Part shown: one piece after another, positions 9,231 to 17,071 of the stretch | Layout of the letters: every line of letters starts with the position of its first letter | How positions within the stretch are numbered: position 1 is the first letter of the stretch | NCBI GenBank assembly: GCA_029561305.1 | Contig: JAKQJG010000155.1 | Location: 1-34,610, forward strand | Direction: 5' to 3' | From: Bacteroidota bacterium | GTDB lineage: Bacteria; Bacteroidota; Bacteroidia; Chitinophagales; Chitinophagaceae | DNA length: 34,610 nucleotides | Made by a program: the position numbers and the translations under genes | The notes under the pieces: model-generated | What the model saw: the letters and a program-made list of their open reading frames with translations, nothing else | Databases searched by the model: none | What the model was told of the DNA's origin: nothing

Positions 9231-9369
9231 ATTGATGCTTGTATTTTGCGTCCAGGGTAACTTTTGTTACAATCGGGAATATTGGTTTTCCCTTGAAAAT
9301 CACTTACTACACAACAATTTTATTCCTTATCTCACAAAACCGCCCTGCCTCCCTTTTTACCGCCTGCCG

Positions 9370-9394: not shown

Positions 9395-10495
9395 ATGAGC
9401 AAAAAAGGAAAAGTTTTGGTAGCAATGAGCGGCGGTATAGACAGTACCGTAGCCGCATTGATGCTTCATAAAGAAGGGTATGAAGTGGTGGGTATTACTA
9501 TGAAAACCTGGGATTATGCCACCAGTGTGGGAACAACGGGAAAAAAAGAAACCGGCTGTTGCAACCTCGATAGTTTTAATGACGCACGGATGGCGGCAGT
9601 GCAACATGGCTTTCCCCATTTTATTTTAGATATCAGGGAGGAGTTTGGAGATTTTGTGATCGAGAATTTTGTAGAAGAATACATAGCCGGACGCACACCC
9701 AATCCCTGTGTAATGTGTAATACGCATATTAAATGGAGGGCACTGTTAAAAAGGGCCGATGCACTGGGCTGTGAATTTATTGCAACTGGCCACTATGCAC
9801 AGGTGCATCAGCATACAAACGGACGCTTTTTTATCCGCAAAGGAATCGATGATACCAAAGATCAGAGCTATGTGCTATGGGGACTGCAACAAGACCTATT
9901 GAGCCGTACCCTATTGCCACTGGGCACCTATCATAAAAAAGACATTCGCCAGATGGCACATGATTTTGGTTATCCCGAACTGGCCAGGAAAAATGAGAGT
10001 TACGAAATATGTTTTGTGCCAGACAATGATTACCGGGGTTTCTTGAGAAGAAATGTGGAAGGGCTGGAAGAAAGGGTGAATGGCGGAAATTTTACTGATA
10101 AAACGGGCAAGGTACTGGGCCAACATAAGGGCTATCCTTTTTATACCGTGGGGCAAAGAAAGGGGCTTGATATTGCCCTGGGCAGACCAGCATTTGTTAC
10201 CCAAATAGACCCAGAAACAAATACGGTTGTGCTGGGTGATGAAGAAGACCTGATGGGCATTGAAATGAATGTAGCAAAGATCAACTGGATCAAATATGAA
10301 GGTGTTACAGAAGGTATGGAAGTCACCACTAAGATCCGCTATAAAGATAAAGGTGCTTTAAGCAACCTGTACACATACGAAAATGGGGTAAAAGTGCGTT
10401 TTTATGAGGATGTAAAAGGCATTGCCCCGGGGCAGAGTGCGGTGTTTTATGAAGGGGATGATGTAATTGGCGGTGGTATCATCCAACGCCAATAA
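9395..10495 (+). CDS. mnmA: tRNA-specific 2-thiouridylase MnmA
   Basis: Adenylates and thiolates U34 of tRNA for Lys, Glu and Gln, taking persulfide sulfur. 366 residues, the usual family length. Visible are the ATP PP-loop SGGIDS (residues 12-17), the first catalytic Cys in NPCVMCN (Cys105), TGHYA, DQSYVLW, and the second catalytic Cys in SYEICFVPDNDYRGFL (about residue 203). The GQRKGLDIALGRPAFV segment starts the C-terminal tRNA-binding part. The ATG at 9395 gives MSKKGKVLVAMSGG, the expected N-terminus. It is divergent from an operon with rhodanese and thioredoxin, proteins that could feed sulfur to it (inference). Confidence 0.97.
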   Translation: MSKKGKVLVAMSGGIDSTVAALMLHKEGYEVVGITMKTWDYATSVGTTGKKETGCCNLDSFNDARMAAVQHGFPHFILDIREEFGDFVIENFVEEYIAGRTPNPCVMCNTHIKWRALLKRADALGCEFIATGHYAQVHQHTNGRFFIRKGIDDTKDQSYVLWGLQQDLLSRTLLPLGTYHKKDIRQMAHDFGYPELARKNESYEICFVPDNDYRGFLRRNVEGLEERVNGGNFTDKTGKVLGQHKGYPFYTVGQRKGLDIALGRPAFVTQIDPETNTVVLGDEEDLMGIEMNVAKINWIKYEGVTEGMEVTTKIRYKDKGALSNLYTYENGVKVRFYEDVKGIAPGQSAVFYEGDDVIGGGIIQRQ

Positions 10496-10564: not shown

Positions 10565-11311
10565 ATGACAAAGAGAATTTTATCAGTGGTTGTTGCAGCA
10601 GTCATTTGTTTGACCAGCTGCAAAAAAGACCCTGAAGATCTGGGCCTTACACCAGTGAGTGAATATGCCCCGCTTGAAGTGGGTAAATACATTACTTACC
10701 AACTGGATTCAGTACGGTATATCCCTTTCACGCTTCAGCAGATCACCCTTAGCTACCAGGTAAAATTTATTGTGGATGGCCAGGTGTTAGATAACCAGGG
10801 CAGACCGTCTTACCGGATCGTACGACAGATACGTGTAAATCCAACCGATGCCTGGGTGCCAGACAACAGCTTTACTGCAACGCCCATTGACAATGGGTTT
10901 GAATTTGTAGATAACAACCTTCGCTTTTTAAAATTAAGAGGTCCGGTAAAGGACGGCTTTACATGGAAGGGCAATTCGTATATTAATACGACTTCTCAAT
11001 ACACTGATTTTGCTTATTTAGAAGGATGGGATTATATGTTTGATAGTGTAGGTGCACCATTAACGCTTGGCACCTTTAATTTAGACAATACCATTAAAAT
11101 TGCGCAACGGGATGAAGTGATCGGTAATCCTGATGATCCCAATTCGTACAGTGAAATAAATTACGGTGTGGAGTATTATGCAAAGGGCATTGGCCTGGTA
11201 TATAAAAGAATTTTCCATTCTGAGTACCAGCCGCCAACAAGTGCCGGGGCTATTGGCAGTTATAGCCAGGATAGCAGGGGTTATACACTAACGATGATCG
11301 ATCATAATTAG
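10565..11311 (+). CDS. Putative lipoprotein of unknown function
   Basis: 248 residues starting with a signal peptide and lipobox (CLTSC, Cys19), followed by KKDPEDLGLTPVSEYAPLEVGKYITYQLDS. The rest is beta-rich with many aromatic residues. Bacteroidota have many such lipoproteins, often with the phrase "plevGkyitYq.Ds". I recognise no named domain and no catalytic motif. Probably periplasmic or outer-membrane. A strong terminator follows; just past it begins the left attachment site of the mobile element. Confidence 0.75.
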   Translation: MTKRILSVVVAAVICLTSCKKDPEDLGLTPVSEYAPLEVGKYITYQLDSVRYIPFTLQQITLSYQVKFIVDGQVLDNQGRPSYRIVRQIRVNPTDAWVPDNSFTATPIDNGFEFVDNNLRFLKLRGPVKDGFTWKGNSYINTTSQYTDFAYLEGWDYMFDSVGAPLTLGTFNLDNTIKIAQRDEVIGNPDDPNSYSEINYGVEYYAKGIGLVYKRIFHSEYQPPTSAGAIGSYSQDSRGYTLTMIDHN

Positions 11312-11335
11312 AGTAGAAACCACTTTCAAAATAAA

Positions 11336-11366
11336 AAAATCCCCTGACAGTCAGGGGATTTTTTAT
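11336..11366 (+). terminator. Rho-independent terminator abutting the left element boundary
   Basis: Stem AATCCCCTGA (11338-11347), loop CAG, partner TCAGGGGATT (11351-11360), then T5-A-T3. It ends the lipoprotein transcript and lies directly against the left copy of the 17-bp att repeat. It therefore belongs to the chromosome, where it originally sat next to the tRNA-Ser gene. Confidence 0.9.
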
Positions 11367-11383
11367 TTGCGGAGAGTAAGAGA
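11367..11383. repeat. Left attachment site (att core, copy 1)
   Basis: TTGCGGAGAGTAAGAGA, identical over 17 bp to 16982-16998. The flanks differ on both sides (T/G before, C/T after). It is the duplicated tRNA-Ser 3' end and no tRNA continues from it. Confidence 0.88.
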
Positions 11384-11445
11384 CTTTACAATATATCAAT
11401 TATTCTATTGAAAATCAATTATTTATGTTTTTTAAATTATTAATC

Positions 11446-11464
11446 GTGCTAAAACAGTGCTAAA
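11446..11464. repeat. Paired GTGCTAAA repeat, left end of element
   Basis: GTGCTAAAACAGTGCTAAA: two GTGCTAAA units 11 bp apart. The same 19-mer with one change is found at 16881-16899 at the other end, in the same orientation. It overlaps the expected -33 region of the integrase promoter. Probable integrase or excisionase arm site. An ATTGA-N3-TCAAT motif at 11407-11419 has a counterpart at 16936-16948. Confidence 0.6.
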
Positions 11465-11480
11465 TTATCCTGATTTTTTG

Positions 11481-11488
11481 TATCTTTG
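11481..11488 (+). promoter_or_regulatory. Bacteroidota -7 box of the integrase gene
   Basis: TATCTTTG matches TANNTTTG and ends 5 bases before the ATG at 11494, so the mRNA is probably leaderless or nearly so. The second GTGCTAAA unit (11457-11464) lies 16 bases upstream, at the expected -33 position. Confidence 0.6.
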
Positions 11489-11493
11489 ACATA

Positions 11494-12741
11494 ATGGATG
11501 AAGTCAATAAATACACATTCCCACGTCTGGCAAAAGGTAAGAAACCAATTAAAATTCCAAGTGGTTCGACACTGGAAAAAGAATGGGCAAAAAACAGCTG
11601 GTATGTTAACTATTCATTCAATGGTAAACAGTTTCGCATCAAGGGTGATATTAACCGAATTAAGGACCACAAAGAAAAAGCATATCAAGCCGAGGTCCTG
11701 TTACAAAGTATTAAGGATGACCTGAAAAATGGCTTTAATCCCAGTAAACCAGAAGCTTTTATAGCCCATATTACCCAAGAAAACATAATCTTATCCGATG
11801 CCGTTAAAATCTATCTGGAGGAACTCAAAACCTACGCCAGACCGAAAACTGTCGGCAGCTATGGAAGTAAATTACGCTATCTCATAGAGGCGTTTCCAGA
11901 TAAGCAAGTGAAATCAATTACATCTACTGATATTGAAAAGTATATCCATGGCAAAATACATTCTTCAAAACCTGCCAAATTGTTTATTTATAATAAAAGT
12001 GTTGAACTTAATAAAGCAATACCGTGGACCCCATACACCGTTCGGGCTGCCAAAGGCATTTTTAGAGCCTTCTTCCAATGGTGCATCAAAAACAAATATT
12101 ACACTGGTGAGAATCCAGCCTCAAAAATGGAAGCAAAGAAAATCCGTAGCGAGGTTGAGGCAAAACCCAGACATATTCCATTTACAAAAGAGGATATAGG
12201 TAAACTTATGAACTATCTGGATGAACAGGATAAACAGGTTGCTTTCTTTTGTAGGGTTATTTATTCGACTTGTCTTCGTCCTGCCGAAATAAGTAAATTA
12301 CGAATAAAGGATATTGACTTTCAGAAAAATCAAATAATTGTACCGCTGGCGGCGACAAAAAACACAAAGAGGATTACAGTTGATAGAATTGATATTGAGC
12401 CAAACCTTTTGAAGGAATTTGAAAAGCTTACTGTTGAGAGCTACCCAAAAGATTACTTTCTAACCTCTCCTTCTGACACATTGATTGGCCCTAAGTCAAT
12501 TGGTAGCAATAATGCCTATAAACGTTTTGCAAAGGCATTAAAAGCCCTGGAATTGCAAGGAAAGGGATATACCCTCTATTCCTTCAAACACTTTTCAAAT
12601 GTGCAACGATTTCATAATGGCTGGACCCTTGCCGAAATTATGACGGCTAACAGACACAGCAGTATATCCATGACTGAAAAATATTTGAGGCACATCAACC
12701 GTGATACTGACATCAGCAAAAAAGAGGTACCAAGTATATAA
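11494..12741 (+). CDS. int: Tyrosine recombinase (integrase) of the element
   Basis: 415 residues. Should catalyse integration and excision between the att repeats. An N-terminal arm-binding region (about 1-85) is followed by a SAM-like core-binding domain (about 95-215) and a catalytic domain (about 225-400). Catalytic residues: Arg262 in TCLRPAEIS, a likely Lys in the AATKNTKR hairpin, His366 in YSFKHFSNV, His388 in NRHSS and the nucleophile Tyr397 in EKYLR. The usual second Arg of the His-x-x-Arg box is Asn369; Bacteroidota integrases with a SFKH box often differ here. It lies at the end of the element away from the tRNA, reading inwards. Confidence 0.93.
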   Translation: MDEVNKYTFPRLAKGKKPIKIPSGSTLEKEWAKNSWYVNYSFNGKQFRIKGDINRIKDHKEKAYQAEVLLQSIKDDLKNGFNPSKPEAFIAHITQENIILSDAVKIYLEELKTYARPKTVGSYGSKLRYLIEAFPDKQVKSITSTDIEKYIHGKIHSSKPAKLFIYNKSVELNKAIPWTPYTVRAAKGIFRAFFQWCIKNKYYTGENPASKMEAKKIRSEVEAKPRHIPFTKEDIGKLMNYLDEQDKQVAFFCRVIYSTCLRPAEISKLRIKDIDFQKNQIIVPLAATKNTKRITVDRIDIEPNLLKEFEKLTVESYPKDYFLTSPSDTLIGPKSIGSNNAYKRFAKALKALELQGKGYTLYSFKHFSNVQRFHNGWTLAEIMTANRHSSISMTEKYLRHINRDTDISKKEVPSI

Positions 12742-12742
12742 T

Positions 12743-12775
12743 AAAAAAGCGACCAACTGGCCGCTTTCTTTTTTA
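12743..12775. terminator. Bidirectional terminator between integrase and serine recombinase
   Basis: AAAGCG (12746-12751) pairs with CGCTTT (12762-12767), extended by CC/GG around a short loop with one mismatch. A-run on the left, T-run on the right. It serves the two convergent genes. Confidence 0.75.
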
Positions 12776-12785
12776 TGAGGTCCCG

Positions 12786-13385
12786 TTATGCTGGTTCCAT
12801 CACCTTTTTAACTTTTATAACGGTGTTTTTACTACAATCTGAAAGTTTGGCTATTTCCCTGTACGTGTAATTGTTTTTATTGAGCAGTTTTACTATCGTC
12901 TGGTACTTTGCTAATATTTCCTCTCTGGATTCGGTTGTACCCTTCTCACGGCCTTTATAGGTCCCTTTAAGCTTCGCAATCTGGATGCCTTCTAATTGTC
13001 TTTCACGTAAAGTTTGGCGTTCCATTTCACCGATATTGGCTAATACCGATACAATAAGTTTAAACGTTGGATTTTCTTTACCACCCACCAGTGATTCCAG
13101 CCCTAGATTATCAACTTTCAGGACCACACCCATTTTGGTGAAAATGTCAATCGTCTGTAACACGTCCAGCGTGGACCTTCCCAGCCTATCTATGCTGCTA
13201 ACGCTAACGTAAGTTACTTCGCCCCTTAAAACACCATCCAGCAAATGCTGGGCTTCTGGTCGCTTCTCAAACGGTATGCTGCCGCTTATTTTATCAATAT
13301 ATAATTTCTCATCCTGATGCTGACGGACCAACTGGCGTTCTTCATTCTGCTTTAAACTGGAAACTCTAACATACCGTGCTTTCAT
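12786..13385 (-). CDS. Serine recombinase, resolvase/invertase family
   Basis: 199 residues, the size of small resolvases and invertases. The N-terminal catalytic domain begins MKARYVRVSS, with the nucleophile Ser9 in the Arg-Val-Ser motif. It continues with YVSVSSIDRLGRSTLDVL (the Asp-Arg-Leu-Gly-Arg-Ser motif) and the long dimer helix IGEMERQTLRERQLEGIQIAK. A C-terminal helix-turn-helix (about 165-195, YTYREIAKLSDCSKNTVIKV) binds DNA. It could resolve element dimers or invert a segment; no obvious inverted crossover sites were found in the window. Second recombinase of the element, convergent with the integrase. Confidence 0.92.
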   Translation of the reverse strand: MKARYVRVSSLKQNEERQLVRQHQDEKLYIDKISGSIPFEKRPEAQHLLDGVLRGEVTYVSVSSIDRLGRSTLDVLQTIDIFTKMGVVLKVDNLGLESLVGGKENPTFKLIVSVLANIGEMERQTLRERQLEGIQIAKLKGTYKGREKGTTESREEILAKYQTIVKLLNKNNYTYREIAKLSDCSKNTVIKVKKVMEPA

Positions 13386-13405
13386 TGTCGTTTTTTTTGT
13401 TGAAA

Positions 13406-13438
13406 CAAATATAAGACTATTTTCCTAAAAGTACCAAA
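13406..13438 (-). promoter_or_regulatory. Promoter of the serine recombinase gene
   Basis: On the minus strand TTTG (13435-13438), a 21-base spacer, then TATATTTG (13406-13413): a full Bacteroidota -33/-7 promoter ending 20 bases before the ATG at 13385. Confidence 0.65.
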
Positions 13439-13466
13439 TTTAGGGTGGTTATTTTTGGACCAATAG

Positions 13467-13480
13467 AAAACACGTGTTTT
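13467..13480. promoter_or_regulatory. 14-bp palindrome upstream of the serine recombinase
   Basis: Perfect palindrome AAAACACGTGTTTT in the 231-base gap between the recombinase and the membrane protein gene, 29 bases upstream of the -33 element. Possible operator or recombination site; nothing else is recognised in this gap. Confidence 0.3.
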
Positions 13481-13616
13481 TTTTGTTCTAGCACGTTTTT
13501 ACGTACCACAGTATGACTATAACCTAATTTTGGTCTGACAGAATAAATGCAATAGCGATTATTGCTCTGATAAAGTTATTTTTTTCTCATAACTCGAAAC
13601 TGAATTAGTATTTGGG

Positions 13617-14492
13617 TTAAACTGCTTTAATACGCCTTATCCATTTTTTACGAAGTAAATCTATAAAATAAATTATCGGCAAACTGATAATCAACCCACT
13701 ATAAACGGCTTTCCAAAGTTCTTCGTCTGTGGTTCCATTAATACTAGTATACATCAGTCCAATGCAAATCATCGCAACCACTGGATAAAATAATAGAAAA
13801 AATAAAACGTTTAAGCCTCTTATATCTTCTTTCATCTTTTGTTTGTTTCCGCTTGCCTTATATGAATTTCCTCTATAATTAACTGGCTCAAATGGTACTT
13901 CAATACCATCAGAAACTTCGTGAATATTGCTTGAACTGTTTTGATATTTTGAATATATTTTGTCTATAACAGCAGTGTCTTCGCTATATCGAGTAATTAT
14001 ACAATCCTTTAGTTGTTGAAAAGTAACATCATTAACCCGAAAACTAGCCTCTTTAAGGTACGCAAATTCTACTTTTCCTGATAGACTACGTGAATTTGCA
14101 ATTTTTAAATAATCATCTTTGCTTAGAATATAGCGGTACCCGTCCTCTTCATAACTATTATCACGCCAGATATTGAAATATTTATCATAATGAGCTGCTA
14201 TCGTGTGTCCATAAGGAATTGGCGTGGGTTTTAATCGACCATTATTATCTAATATAAGTTCAAGATTACCCGAATGGATTTGAACGTTGCGTAAATAATT
14301 CTTAAAATCAAATTCGCCTGTATTGACATTGTAATCAAAAGAAATCGAAAACTCAACTGAATTGTCGTAGTTGCTTTCAGTAAGTCCAAATTTTACTAAA
14401 GTATCAATTGGAGCATTATAAATCTCAAAACGACGAGTATCGTAATCGTATTTTTCACCAACTCTTTGCAGAATAAATAATTTTTTTTCCAT
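13617..14492 (-). CDS. Unknown element cargo protein with two C-terminal transmembrane helices
   Basis: 291 residues from the ATG at 14492 (MEKKLFILQRVGEKY); an ATG 33 bases further upstream would add 11 residues and cannot be excluded. I recognise no family. The first ~215 residues are soluble-looking, rich in Tyr, Asn and Asp, with repeated beta-strand patterns and no signal peptide. The C-terminus has two hydrophobic helices (about 228-252 and 262-282) ending in a basic tail (RKKWIRRIKAV). The predicted topology keeps both ends in the cytoplasm. Base composition is strongly AT-rich. It is the only gene of the element without an obvious DNA-processing role, hence probable cargo. A defence or exclusion effector is possible but unproven. 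Confidence 0.65.
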   Translation of the reverse strand: MEKKLFILQRVGEKYDYDTRRFEIYNAPIDTLVKFGLTESNYDNSVEFSISFDYNVNTGEFDFKNYLRNVQIHSGNLELILDNNGRLKPTPIPYGHTIAAHYDKYFNIWRDNSYEEDGYRYILSKDDYLKIANSRSLSGKVEFAYLKEASFRVNDVTFQQLKDCIITRYSEDTAVIDKIYSKYQNSSSNIHEVSDGIEVPFEPVNYRGNSYKASGNKQKMKEDIRGLNVLFFLLFYPVVAMICIGLMYTSINGTTDEELWKAVYSGLIISLPIIYFIDLLRKKWIRRIKAV

Positions 14493-14700
14493 ATAATTTT
14501 TTAAATTATAGTATATTTCTATCAATACCTGAATTAAATCACACTAAAGCTCAATAAATTCAATTTCGTATTCACATGTCACCTTCATACAACGTATCTA
14601 ACTCAAATAAAAGTTATCCGTAAGGCTAACTTCTTAGATGTAATCTCACATGCTTTACAAAGCCTCTTCTGACCAAACATAAAAATAGGGACTTTCAATT

Positions 14701-14720
14701 TGGATACATATGTGTATCCA
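14701..14720. promoter_or_regulatory. Inverted repeat, likely operator of the XRE regulator
   Basis: TGGATACATATGTGTATCCA: two perfect 8-bp arms (TGGATACA / TGTATCCA) around TATG. It ends 20 bases before a -7-like box GATTTTTG (14741-14748), so a bound repressor would cover the -33 region. A related GGATACA half-site occurs at 15862-15868 upstream of the Rep-like gene. Confidence 0.6.
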
Positions 14721-14752
14721 TAAAGTTTTTTTCATCAGACGATTTTTGGAGG

Positions 14753-14968
14753 GTGAAGAATCCTGCAAAAATCAAGGCATTTGGCGTTCATCTTAGAAGG
14801 TTGAGAGAGGAAGCCCAGATGAGCCAGCAGGACTTGGCTCATGCGGCTGACGTTGCAAAAATTACTATTCAACGGATTGAAAACGCAAAATACTCATCCA
14901 CCCTTGATATGCTTATTACCCTTTCCAAAGCTCTCAAAGTACCTCTGAGAGACTTGATGGATTTTTAA
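14753..14968 (+). CDS. XRE-family helix-turn-helix regulator
   Basis: 71 residues, a single Cro/C1-type HTH domain: LRRLREEAQMSQQDLAHAADVAKITIQRIENAKYSSTLDMLITLSKAL, filling almost the whole protein. Start GTG at 14753. GGAGG lies directly against it, too close for normal Shine-Dalgarno use, and the -7-like box ends 4 bases upstream, so translation may be leaderless. Small XRE proteins of this kind control copy number or excision in mobile elements. The inverted repeat 33 bases upstream fits autoregulation. Confidence 0.88.
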   Translation: MKNPAKIKAFGVHLRRLREEAQMSQQDLAHAADVAKITIQRIENAKYSSTLDMLITLSKALKVPLRDLMDF

Positions 14969-15008
14969 AATTTTTCTGGGCCGATATATTTATCATTAAA
15001 GCCCCAAA

Positions 15009-15176
15009 ATGGATAGCAAGGAAATACAAAACAATTTAAACCTCAAACAAACTGAATTATCCTACTCAAAGGATGCCGAAACCAGAAAAACTATTGAAAA
15101 GCAAATCAGCATCCTGCGGCTTAAACTGGAAATAGAGAAAATCAGGGACCGAATCGAATACCTTAACCAGAGATAG
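15009..15176 (+). CDS. 55-residue predicted coiled-coil protein
   Basis: ATG at 15009, stop at 15176. It is highly charged and helical: leucines and isoleucines recur every three to four residues through LRLKLEIEKIRDRIEYLNQR, typical of a coiled coil. It lies 40 bases after the XRE gene on the same strand and overlaps the end of the convergent Rep-like gene by 14 bases. No known family. The open frame with good helical periodicity and the operon-like spacing support a real gene, but it is short. Confidence 0.5.
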   Translation: MDSKEIQNNLNLKQTELSYSKDAETRKTIEKQISILRLKLEIEKIRDRIEYLNQR

Positions 15177-15828
15177 AAAAGGACCGTCTGAATTTCTCCG
15201 CTTCTTCTTCTAAGTTAGTACCCAGAATATCCCAATCATCCCCGTGAACGCCGTCTTTAACCATGTAGAATAAGGCTGCTTTGTATGGGTCGTAAAGTCT
15301 AAAATCTGACCTGTCATATTCAAAGTACAGGCTTACATCGTCTAGAATAGTTTGTAAAAGTGATTTATTAGAAACATATAAAACAAAATGATTGTGGTAG
15401 CCATTTCTATTGGCAAAGGGTTCTGTTGTAAAAAATAAACGAATATGGGTGCGGTCCCCATAACGCTCAATTAGTGTATCATAAAGCCCGTGCATCATCC
15501 GAAAGCAAGATTTTTTATTTCGCTCTGTTTTATAGGCCACTGTGCAGAAATAGGACCAATCCATATACCAAAGCCTCATTTGAAGCGACCCTGTGTCCAT
15601 TAAGCTCCCAATGACATTTTTCATTGAGTTATTTTCCTGTCGTAATAATTTATTCTCATCAAACATGATTTCAGAATCAAAATATCTGGCATGTTCAATT
15701 GGGTAGTAGTTCTTTTTCCTGAATATAATTTCTGCTTGTAGTTCTGGATGTTTCTTATAGAATCTAAAAATTTTGCTTCGACTGACTTTTGTTCTGTTGA
15801 TAAACTCATTTATTGGTTCGATTTTCAT
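15163..15828 (-). CDS. Probable HUH-type replication initiator or relaxase
   Basis: 221 residues. The N-terminal ~50 residues look like a helix-turn-helix (INEFINRTKVSRSKIFRFYKK). A domain follows with the ordered motifs of rolling-circle Rep/relaxase enzymes: motif 1 WSYFCTVAYKT (91-101), motif 2 TEPFANRNGYHNHFVLYV with Glu136 and the His145-x-His147 metal pair, and motif 3 YKAALFYMVKD with candidate nucleophile Tyr188 and Lys191 (Tyr182 is an alternative). The middle residue of the His pair is Asn, not hydrophobic, so the match is imperfect. It may nick an origin in the non-coding stretch just upstream (15829-16391). No mobilization or coupling genes are present. Family assignment is by motif reading only. 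Confidence 0.6.
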   Translation of the reverse strand: MKIEPINEFINRTKVSRSKIFRFYKKHPELQAEIIFRKKNYYPIEHARYFDSEIMFDENKLLRQENNSMKNVIGSLMDTGSLQMRLWYMDWSYFCTVAYKTERNKKSCFRMMHGLYDTLIERYGDRTHIRLFFTTEPFANRNGYHNHFVLYVSNKSLLQTILDDVSLYFEYDRSDFRLYDPYKAALFYMVKDGVHGDDWDILGTNLEEEAEKFRRSFSISG

Positions 15829-16188
15829 AGTTGTACATCATTTTACTGTTTGTTATTTAAAGGATACACGAAGCCCATACAAGGGTTTTATCCGTGTCTT
15901 TACAATTAAATAGTCAAAAAATTTAAAAAGTGTAGCTTTTTGAACCGTTTTCCCGAAATATTTTTTTCTGGAAGGTGTTTCAAAATGACACAAGCAATAT
16001 TTTTCGGCTGGATTACATAGAAATATTTGTTTACACCATCATTGGCAATGGTACTAAAAGGTAATAATTGATATGTAAGCGAGGTAAATCAGTTACTTAA
16101 AAACAGTTTAGGGGGTCCCAGGGAGGGGGTATAGGTACAATCAGTAACGTGTAAAAAGCCATTCAGGAACAAAAAGGAACAATAAAAA

Positions 16189-16216
16189 AGGTCCAGAAGA
16201 TAATCATTCTGGACCT
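16189..16216. other. Strong hairpin in the non-coding stretch
   Basis: AGGTCCAGAA (16189-16198) pairs perfectly with TTCTGGACCT (16207-16216) around an 8-base loop. On the minus strand it is followed by a T6 run, so it could end a leftward transcript, yet no minus-strand gene lies to its right. Alternatives are a nick-site hairpin (origin) or the terminator of a small antisense RNA. Confidence 0.5.
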
Positions 16217-16379
16217 GCATTTATTAATACCTTGTCAAATCGAATCTAATAACATCATTAAATTTCGACATACAGTTAAGCAATTAGTGGGTAAAGGGTA
16301 AAATAGCATTTCTATTTTATTTTCGGTTAGGCTGGACTTATTATCCGTATGCAATAACTCTCGTTCATATTTTCTAGTA

Positions 16380-16387
16380 TATTTTTG
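16380..16387 (+). promoter_or_regulatory. Bacteroidota -7 box of the 160-residue gene
   Basis: TATTTTTG matches TANNTTTG and ends 4 bases before the ATG at 16392, again implying a leaderless transcript. Confidence 0.55.
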
Positions 16388-16391
16388 CAAG

Positions 16392-16874
16392 ATGAAAATA
16401 GGGTTAGTAATCGCAGAATTTGAATCCAGCTATTCAACTTCATTCCAGCATACAGCTAGGGTAAAGTATGGTGTTGATTTTAATACCAGCAACGTGGATA
16501 CTTTGGGTTTAAAGCTTGAAGAATTAAAAGAGAGGCTTTTAAAAAACCAGTGTAAGGATGTTCATGTGGGACTGGAAATTACATTGGACCATGTAACCCA
16601 TATTCAATACCTGTTTAATCAAATACTGGATAAGTATAAAGAATTATTTCATGTACAGCCCTCTAACAGGAAAATATATACTATCAACCAGAAGTTGAGG
16701 GAAGCCGAAACACCCTCACCGACAGATATTGCAAAAGAGGCTTTGACACAAATTCTTACACCAGAAAAACCAACCCGACAAACTAAGTTACAACGCATAA
16801 AGGCAGAGGCACAAAACCTTAGTAAAAGGCGTGTATTGGAAGCAATTAAGAAAAACAATGCTAGAAACCAGTAA
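16392..16874 (+). CDS. Unknown 160-residue element protein with basic C-terminus
   Basis: Not recognised. The N-terminal half (1-100) reads as an alpha/beta domain (MKIGLVIAEFESSYSTSFQHT, then VHVGLEITLDHVTHIQYLFNQILDKY). The last 60 residues are Lys/Arg/Gln-rich and helical (RQTKLQRIKAEAQNLSKRRVLEAIKKN), suggesting nucleic-acid binding. It is the last gene of the element, 7 bases before the right paired GTGCTAAA repeat and about 110 bases from the right att site. A role in excision (directionality factor) or replication is possible from location only. Its own promoter lies just before the ATG. Confidence 0.7.
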   Translation: MKIGLVIAEFESSYSTSFQHTARVKYGVDFNTSNVDTLGLKLEELKERLLKNQCKDVHVGLEITLDHVTHIQYLFNQILDKYKELFHVQPSNRKIYTINQKLREAETPSPTDIAKEALTQILTPEKPTRQTKLQRIKAEAQNLSKRRVLEAIKKNNARNQ

Positions 16875-16880
16875 GAAATA

Positions 16881-16899
16881 GTGCTAAAACGGTGCTAAA
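16881..16899. repeat. Paired GTGCTAAA repeat, right end of element
   Basis: GTGCTAAAACGGTGCTAAA, 18 of 19 bases identical to 11446-11464 and in the same orientation. With the ATTGA-N3-TCAAT motif at 16936-16948 it repeats the arrangement at the left end. Likely arm-type recombinase sites. Confidence 0.6.
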
Positions 16900-16953
16900 C
16901 ACCATTAGACGTAGAGTTTTAAAAAATATTAAACAATTGATAATCAATAAAAA

Positions 16954-16978
16954 ATGCCCCATGATTAGGGACATTTTC
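16954..16978 (+). terminator. Weak terminator at the right end of the element
   Basis: ATGCCCC / GGGACAT stem with one C-A mismatch and a 7-base loop, preceded by A-rich and followed by T-rich sequence. It would end the 160-residue gene before the att site and the converging tRNA gene. Confidence 0.45.
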
Positions 16979-16981
16979 TTG

Positions 16982-16998
16982 TTGCGGAGAGTAAGAGA
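16982..16998. repeat. Right attachment site (att core, copy 2, in tRNA-Ser)
   Basis: TTGCGGAGAGTAAGAGA; 14 of its 17 bases are the 3' end (acceptor and T-stem) of tRNA-Ser on the minus strand. Integration left the tRNA intact. Confidence 0.88.
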
Positions 16999-17071
16999 TT
17001 CGAACTCTTGATACAGTTTCCCGTATACACACTTTCCAGGCGTGCTCCTTCAACCACTCGGACAACTCTCC
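16985..17071 (-). tRNA. tRNA-Ser (anticodon GGA)
   Basis: 87 bases on the minus strand. Acceptor stem GGAGAGT / ACTCTCC with discriminator G; anticodon stem CACGC / GTGTG around the loop CTGGAAA (anticodon GGA, reads UCC and UCU). A long variable arm (TATACGGGAAACTGTATC) is diagnostic of the Ser class, and the T-arm is AAGAG-TTCGAAT-CTCTT. No CCA is encoded. It is the integration target of the neighbouring element. Confidence 0.97.

Follow-up and report, generated by a model that had tools for sequence, protein, structure and literature searches.

The DNA stretch analysed here (hereafter the window: 34,610 nucleotides, contig JAKQJG010000155.1 of assembly GCA_029561305.1, from a Bacteroidota bacterium of the family Chitinophagaceae) carries a small element inserted at the 3' end of a tRNA-Ser(GGA) gene. 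The element is delimited by two exact copies of a 17-bp direct repeat, TTGCGGAGAGTAAGAGA, with a spacing of 5,615 bp, and holds seven genes, all seven frames being open. In addition, doubled GTGCTAAAA repeats are found at both of its ends. Compared to an earlier reading made from the sequence only, the present account adds a probable replication initiator of the HUH type (Rep), a small serine recombinase and the arm-like repeat at both ends. The features are as follows (aa, amino acids; HTH, helix-turn-helix).

11334-11364, no strand: terminator-like perfect hairpin, chromosomal, beside attL (hairpin search)
11367-11383, plus: attL core, 17 bp (repeat search, genome count, shuffles)
11442-11464, plus: left arm-like double repeat, GTGCTAAAACAGTGCTAAA, also written AATCGTGCTAAAACAGTGCTAAA (repeat search)
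11481-11488, plus: TAnnTTTG, a possible -7 box of the promoter for the integrase gene
11494-12741, plus: tyrosine integrase, 415 aa (PF00589, 52.2 bits, cut-off 27.1)
12786-13385, minus: small serine recombinase of resolvase/invertase type, 199 aa (PF00239, 79.8 bits, cut-off 23.3)
13617-14492, minus: orphan 291-aa protein, putative cargo, two hydrophobic segments near the C-terminus
14753-14968, plus: Cro/C1-type HTH regulator of 71 aa, its gene divergent from that of the cargo (PF01381, 51.2 bits, cut-off 23)
15009-15176, plus: 55-aa protein, convergent with Rep with a 14-bp overlap; homologues beside Rep in loci L048 and L049
15163-15828, minus: putative HUH-type replication initiator (Rep) of 221 aa, with HxH at residues 145-147 and YxxK at 188-191
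15860-15995, minus (approximate limits): noncoding block conserved upstream of the rep gene; CTTGTATGG lies at 15875-15883
16392-16874, plus: P160, a 160-aa protein at the tRNA-side end, all-helical in the predicted model
16877-16899, plus: right arm-like double repeat, sharing 91% identity with its left counterpart (repeat search)
16949-16978, no strand: imperfect terminator-like hairpin, element-borne, after the tRNA (by eye; missed by the perfect-stem criterion)
16982-16998, plus: attR core, 17 bp, at the tRNA 3' end (repeat search, genome count, tRNA scan)
16984-17071, minus: tRNA-Ser(GGA), the intact target gene (tRNA scan)

Boundaries, target and gene content

The sequence-only reading had drawn both boundaries from the exact repeat, the intact tRNA at the right edge, the tyrosine integrase inside the left edge, the AT-rich interval and a chromosomal terminator beside the left copy, and all of these observations were borne out. 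In the whole 4.83-Mb draft genome the exact 17-bp repeat is present twice, with zero further copies at one mismatch, and a control search with the reversed pattern gave 0 matches. When 11.9 kb was dinucleotide-shuffled 300 times and compared with 50 nt surrounding the tRNA 3' end, the longest match was 13 bp, reached once. The G + C content is 35.3% between the repeats and 43.2% in the remaining window. As for the left flank, a hairpin satisfying the perfect-stem criterion used for 11334-11364 was found within 75 nt past tRNA-Ser in 9/13 relatives; this flank therefore resembles the original 3' flank of the tRNA, which was probably displaced by the insertion.

The target was then compared across a genus sample of 59 genomes, including that of the window, 57 of which had a tatD match at 1e-60. 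Thirty tatD loci, the window's own and those of 29 relatives, were scanned; tRNA-Ser(GGA) was in view at 20 of the 29, in an orientation sometimes unlike that of the window, and out of view at nine, some of which end early. Thirteen of the 20 tRNA-bearing loci were extended to 6.7-13 kb, and all 13 had tRNA-Ser(GGA) near tatD and zero matches to the seven element proteins at 1e-3, so that the same genes are not fixed at this locus in these relatives. An orthologue of the left neighbour gene (10565-11311) was found in 17 of 20 relatives searched for it, on another contig than the tatD match in 15 and more than 100 kb away in two (G433 and G337). As it never lay within 100 kb of the tatD match, it is only the tRNA-Ser/tatD side that is shown to be empty. 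Taken together, the window displays what is expected of a tRNA-integrated island with a tyrosine integrase: the tRNA itself intact and its 3' end repeated exactly at the opposite boundary, a phage-integrase-family gene inside one end, and an element-free target in relatives. In a locus of G433 (L112), an exact duplicate of the 17-nt tRNA-Ser(GGA) 3' end lies 359 bp past the tRNA (positions 9294 and 9653), as if a small insertion or scar lay at the same target.

The window proteins were compared with Pfam and NCBIfam at curated cut-offs and with PHROGs at E <= 1e-3. In agreement with the earlier description of seven genes without structural, conjugation or transposase functions, no capsid or other phage structural, conjugation or transposase family reached its cut-off in Pfam or NCBIfam, and PHROGs matches were limited to the integrase, the serine recombinase and the HTH protein. 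The unknown membrane protein singled out previously is indeed an orphan, since the protein database returned only the 291-aa protein itself and one 98% copy. The serine recombinase is also present in genome G081 and in several loci with Rep relatives. The cargo genes of two such loci, L017 and L049, are likewise divergent from an HTH gene, and these loci, from different bacteria, have a three-gene cargo in common (L017 5328-6794, L049 6639-8153), which is SHOCT- and DUF2752-like in L017. Upstream of the integrase gene, TAnnTTTG corresponds to what we take to be the -7 box of Bacteroidota promoters, and the left arm repeat (in 11440-11500) lies approximately where, on the spacing we assume for such promoters, the -33 element of this gene would be, so that the integrase may repress its own synthesis.

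Related elements and the conserved tRNA-side end

An integrase search in 11 genomes revealed close relatives in two, G065 and G081; their attL sequences were located on other contigs by way of the integrase, and the repeat lengths given here were counted by eye. The G065 integrase is 44% identical to that of the window and is preceded by the arm repeat and an 18-bp copy of a tRNA-Ala 3' end, with the intact tRNA-Ala(GGC) and the P160 gene on another contig. The two contig ends have 24 residues of one open reading frame in common, and the element is therefore estimated at approximately 8-9 kb; by eye, it also encodes a LytTR-like regulator and a large sensor-like protein. In G081, where the integrase is 69% identical and has one in-frame stop, its gene comes after 15 bp copied from the 3' end of tRNA-Ser(TGA) and after an arm-like repeat, and a serine recombinase gene is convergent with it, as in the window. 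Homologues at other tRNA sites, whose absence would have spoken against the sequence-only reading, are thus found at tRNA-Ala(GGC) and tRNA-Ser(TGA).

The tRNA-side end of these elements is marked by P160, for which no curated family cut-off was reached in the libraries searched. A P160 profile detected the protein in 7/396 genomes of the order, including that of the window, in 1/395 genomes phylum-wide (the window's own) and in 2/30 genomes of the family of G138, both already known. In all seven genomes, the P160 gene points at a tRNA 3' end, with the arm repeat, and a hairpin recognised by eye, between the gene and the tRNA. The tRNAs are Ser(GGA) in the window, Ser(TGA) in G175, G138, G081 and G085, and Ala(GGC) in G065, and the end in G281 is tRNA-Ser-like by eye. 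Five of the P160 ends have an exact palindrome, TTGATWATCAA; the G081 copy differs from it at two positions, and G065 lacks it. In G085, the P160 gene is a remnant with a stop.

With at most one mismatch, the arm repeat was found in 10/396 genomes of the order, compared with one match for the reversed control, and the ten include all seven P160 genomes. The other three (G215, G206 and G388) hold single matches with one mismatch each, no P160 and no close integrase, and were read as chance; their flanks look unrelated by eye, the tRNAs there lying outside the scan. The doubled repeats at the element ends are probably arm sites of the integrase. In the other four P160 genomes no close integrase was found, and these could represent remnants, contig breaks or the use of other integrases. 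When the P160 loci were searched for att repeats, the tRNAs of L129, L131, L133 and L134 had no repeat of at least 13 bp elsewhere in the locus; L130 was without a tRNA call, and L132 gave its own palindrome only.

Two minor observations concern these loci. Past the P160 end and the tRNA 3' end of L130 (G281, positions 1-260) lies a frame that looks by eye like another tyrosine integrase, which suggests tandem elements at one tRNA. By eye, a protein of 168-177 aa is common to two P160 genomes (L166 129-662 and L129 9043-9549), and the L166 copy has no Pfam match.

The putative Rep and its upstream block

Its motifs and an HUH-like predicted model make the 221-aa protein a probable replication initiator of the HUH type. 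It carries HxH and, downstream, a tyrosine with a lysine at +3, presumably the HUH catalytic pattern, and in an alignment of 31 sequences H145, Y188 and K191 are invariant and H147 is present in at least 90%. Its predicted fold may be similar to those of microvirus Rep, inovirus G2P, pMV158 RepB and SIRV1 ORF119, with which it shares HxH and YxxK; unlike these initiators, it falls below sequence family cut-offs and has an N-terminal part that is HTH-like by eye. The window protein matched no Pfam family, the best Pfam E value among its relatives was 1.2e-4, which falls short of the family cut-off, and NCBIfam and PHROGs gave these relatives scattered weak matches only. The model had 38 matches in BFVD, four of them named, and the named viral matches are replication proteins. 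A Rep profile detected 3/396 genomes of the order, including that of the window. Among the close metagenome relatives of Rep and P160, several have a longest contig of 5-9 kb. Rep and the resolvase recur in other backbones, and members of three recombinase clusters (named by eye, some by Pfam) are present in 31/43 Rep loci.

Upstream of Rep lies a conserved block of approximately 130 bp. Forty loci had a Rep frame of 150 aa or longer (the fragment-only L047, L050 and L051 were dropped); in 33 of these, window included, the exact CTTGTATGG stands approximately 40-55 bp before rep, and it is missing upstream in L024, L043, L048, L119, L014, L049 and L046. There are four further occurrences in 625 kb, one of which precedes a second, partial rep in L012. 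The best 9-mer upstream of Rep was common to 33/40 loci, and the best one downstream to 13/40. This block may be a putative origin, an operator or both. A hairpin around CTTGTATGG was examined in the 33 motif-bearing loci (63 columns, 11 pairs): its covariation score was reached by 9/500 shuffles, its paired cells by 25/500 and its pairs with changes on both sides by 85/500. Sliding the partners by +1 to +3 columns gave 4, 4 and 5 such pairs, versus 4 in register, and RNAalifold kept two pairs. The hairpin is a hint only, with modest support.

Several Rep loci showed further peculiarities. In L049, a Rep element lies in tRNA-Met, and the sequence that it duplicates (2513-2587 and 9880-9951) is not the tRNA 3' end but the 5' half together with some of the upstream region, as if the element resupplied the 5' part of tRNA-Met. 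In several Flavobacterium loci among L012-L045, Rep together with a 191-aa tyrosine-recombinase-like protein is often found close to a recurring set of genes for proteins of approximately 187 aa and 559 aa and two tyrosine-recombinase-like proteins of approximately 305 and 288 aa (12 loci), and behind Rhs-like genes of approximately 1200 aa (11 loci; names by eye). Three Rep loci (L013, L028 and L040) are titled Gammaproteobacteria, Rhizobium and Bifidobacterium metagenome-assembled genomes; the 54-58% identity of their Rep to Bacteroidota relatives suggests that these contigs are misbinned.

Nature of the element and its alternatives

The most likely explanation, to which we give a probability of about 0.68, is that the element is an integrated plasmid-like replicon that is excised by its integrase, copied by Rep and spread by a helper, with the orphan membrane protein as cargo. 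The tyrosine integrase would bind the arm-type repeats at both ends and recombine the 17-bp core at the tRNA-Ser 3' end, leaving the tRNA intact and followed by the element-borne hairpin. Excision would yield a 5,615-bp circle, in which P160 would immediately precede attP and the integrase gene would immediately follow it. Rolling-circle copying of this circle would start from a nick made by Rep in, or close to, the conserved block that precedes the rep gene, and the serine recombinase would resolve multimers. P160 would most likely help at the att site, as an excision or direction factor or as an architectural protein, and the HTH protein may control the divergent membrane-protein cargo. As no transfer gene was recognised, spread between cells would need a helper, which could be a plasmid, an integrative and conjugative element (ICE) or a phage. 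The sequence itself shows the boundaries, the target, which genes are present, the occurrence of such elements at other tRNAs, the conservation of the ends and the block before rep, whereas arm binding by the integrase, excision, replication, transfer and the roles of P160, the HTH protein and the cargo are inferred. Two observations weigh against this replicon model. Only four of the 38 BFVD matches are named, which lowers confidence in it. In addition, a strict empty site, with the left gene joined to tRNA-Ser, was not found in the relatives searched; the chromosomes are rearranged between the window genome and its relatives, and a strict before-and-after pair is missing. The empty site anticipated by the sequence-only reading was thus recovered on the tRNA-Ser/tatD side, but not joined to the left flank.

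An alternative hypothesis is that the element is a phage satellite; a helper phage would induce and package this minimal island, and Rep would amplify it once the cell is infected. A class of islands combines inovirus Gp2-like proteins with tyrosine integrases and tRNA/tmRNA sites, and one member, I55, is packaged by a jumbo phage (PMC12595487, as far as the part consulted describes them), and one Rep relative bears the source name 'Inovirus Gp2 family'. PICMIs, in the part of their description used here (PMC10803314), are satellites that have three core proteins and lack genes for capsid remodelling, so that phage-borne transfer would not demand capsid genes. However, the window proteins matched no phage structural or packaging families and included neither packaging or capsid-redirecting genes nor an AlpA/primase core. 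Searches of viral contigs with Rep, P160, the arm repeat and the upstream block gave one contig altogether, found with Rep, and neither a P160 relative nor an exact arm repeat, and plasmid and phage collections gave no match at 1e-5; we therefore find a satellite doubtful. If the HUH protein were instead a small relaxase, as its model would allow, the element could be an integrative mobilizable element (IME) carried by an ICE or a plasmid, in the way that NBU2, located in the 3' end of a tRNAser gene, is mobilised by CTnERL (PMC5704250, in the portion seen). This is unlikely, as the seven proteins reached the cut-off of no relaxase family, the MobP/Q/V/C relaxases of canonical IMEs included (the HTH protein touches MobT at 14.1 bits versus a cut-off of 600), and the named viral matches of the Rep model are replication proteins.

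The single copy in the genome, the lack of a close integrase or Rep relative among 58 related genomes and the stops in the G081 integrase and the G085 P160 would also suit a degenerate remnant that is no longer mobile. This is less probable still, because none of the seven window frames is interrupted, each end has its arm repeat and the att cores are identical. Finally, a chance repeat inside ordinary chromosome might be suspected, as the relatives searched have the left neighbour gene away from tRNA-Ser/tatD; nevertheless, shuffles gave at most 13 bp, and the same anatomy at the tRNA sites of G065 and G081 in practice rules this out.

Beyond the single replicon, we tentatively propose that Bacteroidota harbour an undescribed family of minimal integrative replicons, each put together from two modules that travel separately, with the new protein P160 as a dedicated att-site factor and one or a few orphan effector genes as cargo. 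The integration module would comprise the integrase, the doubled arm repeats and P160 with its fixed place at the tRNA-side end, and the replication module a new HUH Rep clade, its own conserved origin block and the resolvase. If so, the element, with its 5.6 kb and seven genes, would represent a small but complete toolkit for site-specific integration into the tRNA genes of Bacteroidota, P160 and the arm repeat could reveal islands without a close integrase, and the Rep clade would have a recognisable upstream block that is directly testable as an origin.

The sequence-only reading had considered the element undescribed. This is upheld for P160 and the Rep clade, as far as the libraries and literature searched reach, and no description of the window element was recognised in that literature, but the general kind, a small tRNA-integrated element, is already well known. 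The following comparisons draw on parts of the published descriptions. Charybdis elements (PMC12324425) were rejected as a match, since the integrated members are archaeal and the authors, in the part consulted, saw no replication gene save rare topoisomerases. PICMIs resemble the window element in having few genes and an excision and replication core; they differ in belonging to Vibrionaceae and lying next to fis, and are set beside it by description, not by genes (PMC10803314). I55-type islands likewise use tRNA/tmRNA sites and a tyrosine recombinase and frequently include a Gp2-like protein, whereas they are found in Pseudomonas and carry AlpA, YqaJ and RadC, none of which is matched by the seven window proteins (PMC12595487). 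NBU2 and other Bacteroidota IMEs have a tyrosine integrase, a tRNA-Ser 3' end as target (NBU2) and the need for a helper in common with the window element, but NBU2 has a MobP relaxase and resistance genes (PMC5704250). Similar in anatomy are Islander-class tRNA islands (PMC4383910), with a duplicated tRNA 3' end, an intact tRNA at one end and an integrase inside the other; unlike these, the window element is small, and its conserved tRNA-side end is marked by arm repeats and P160.

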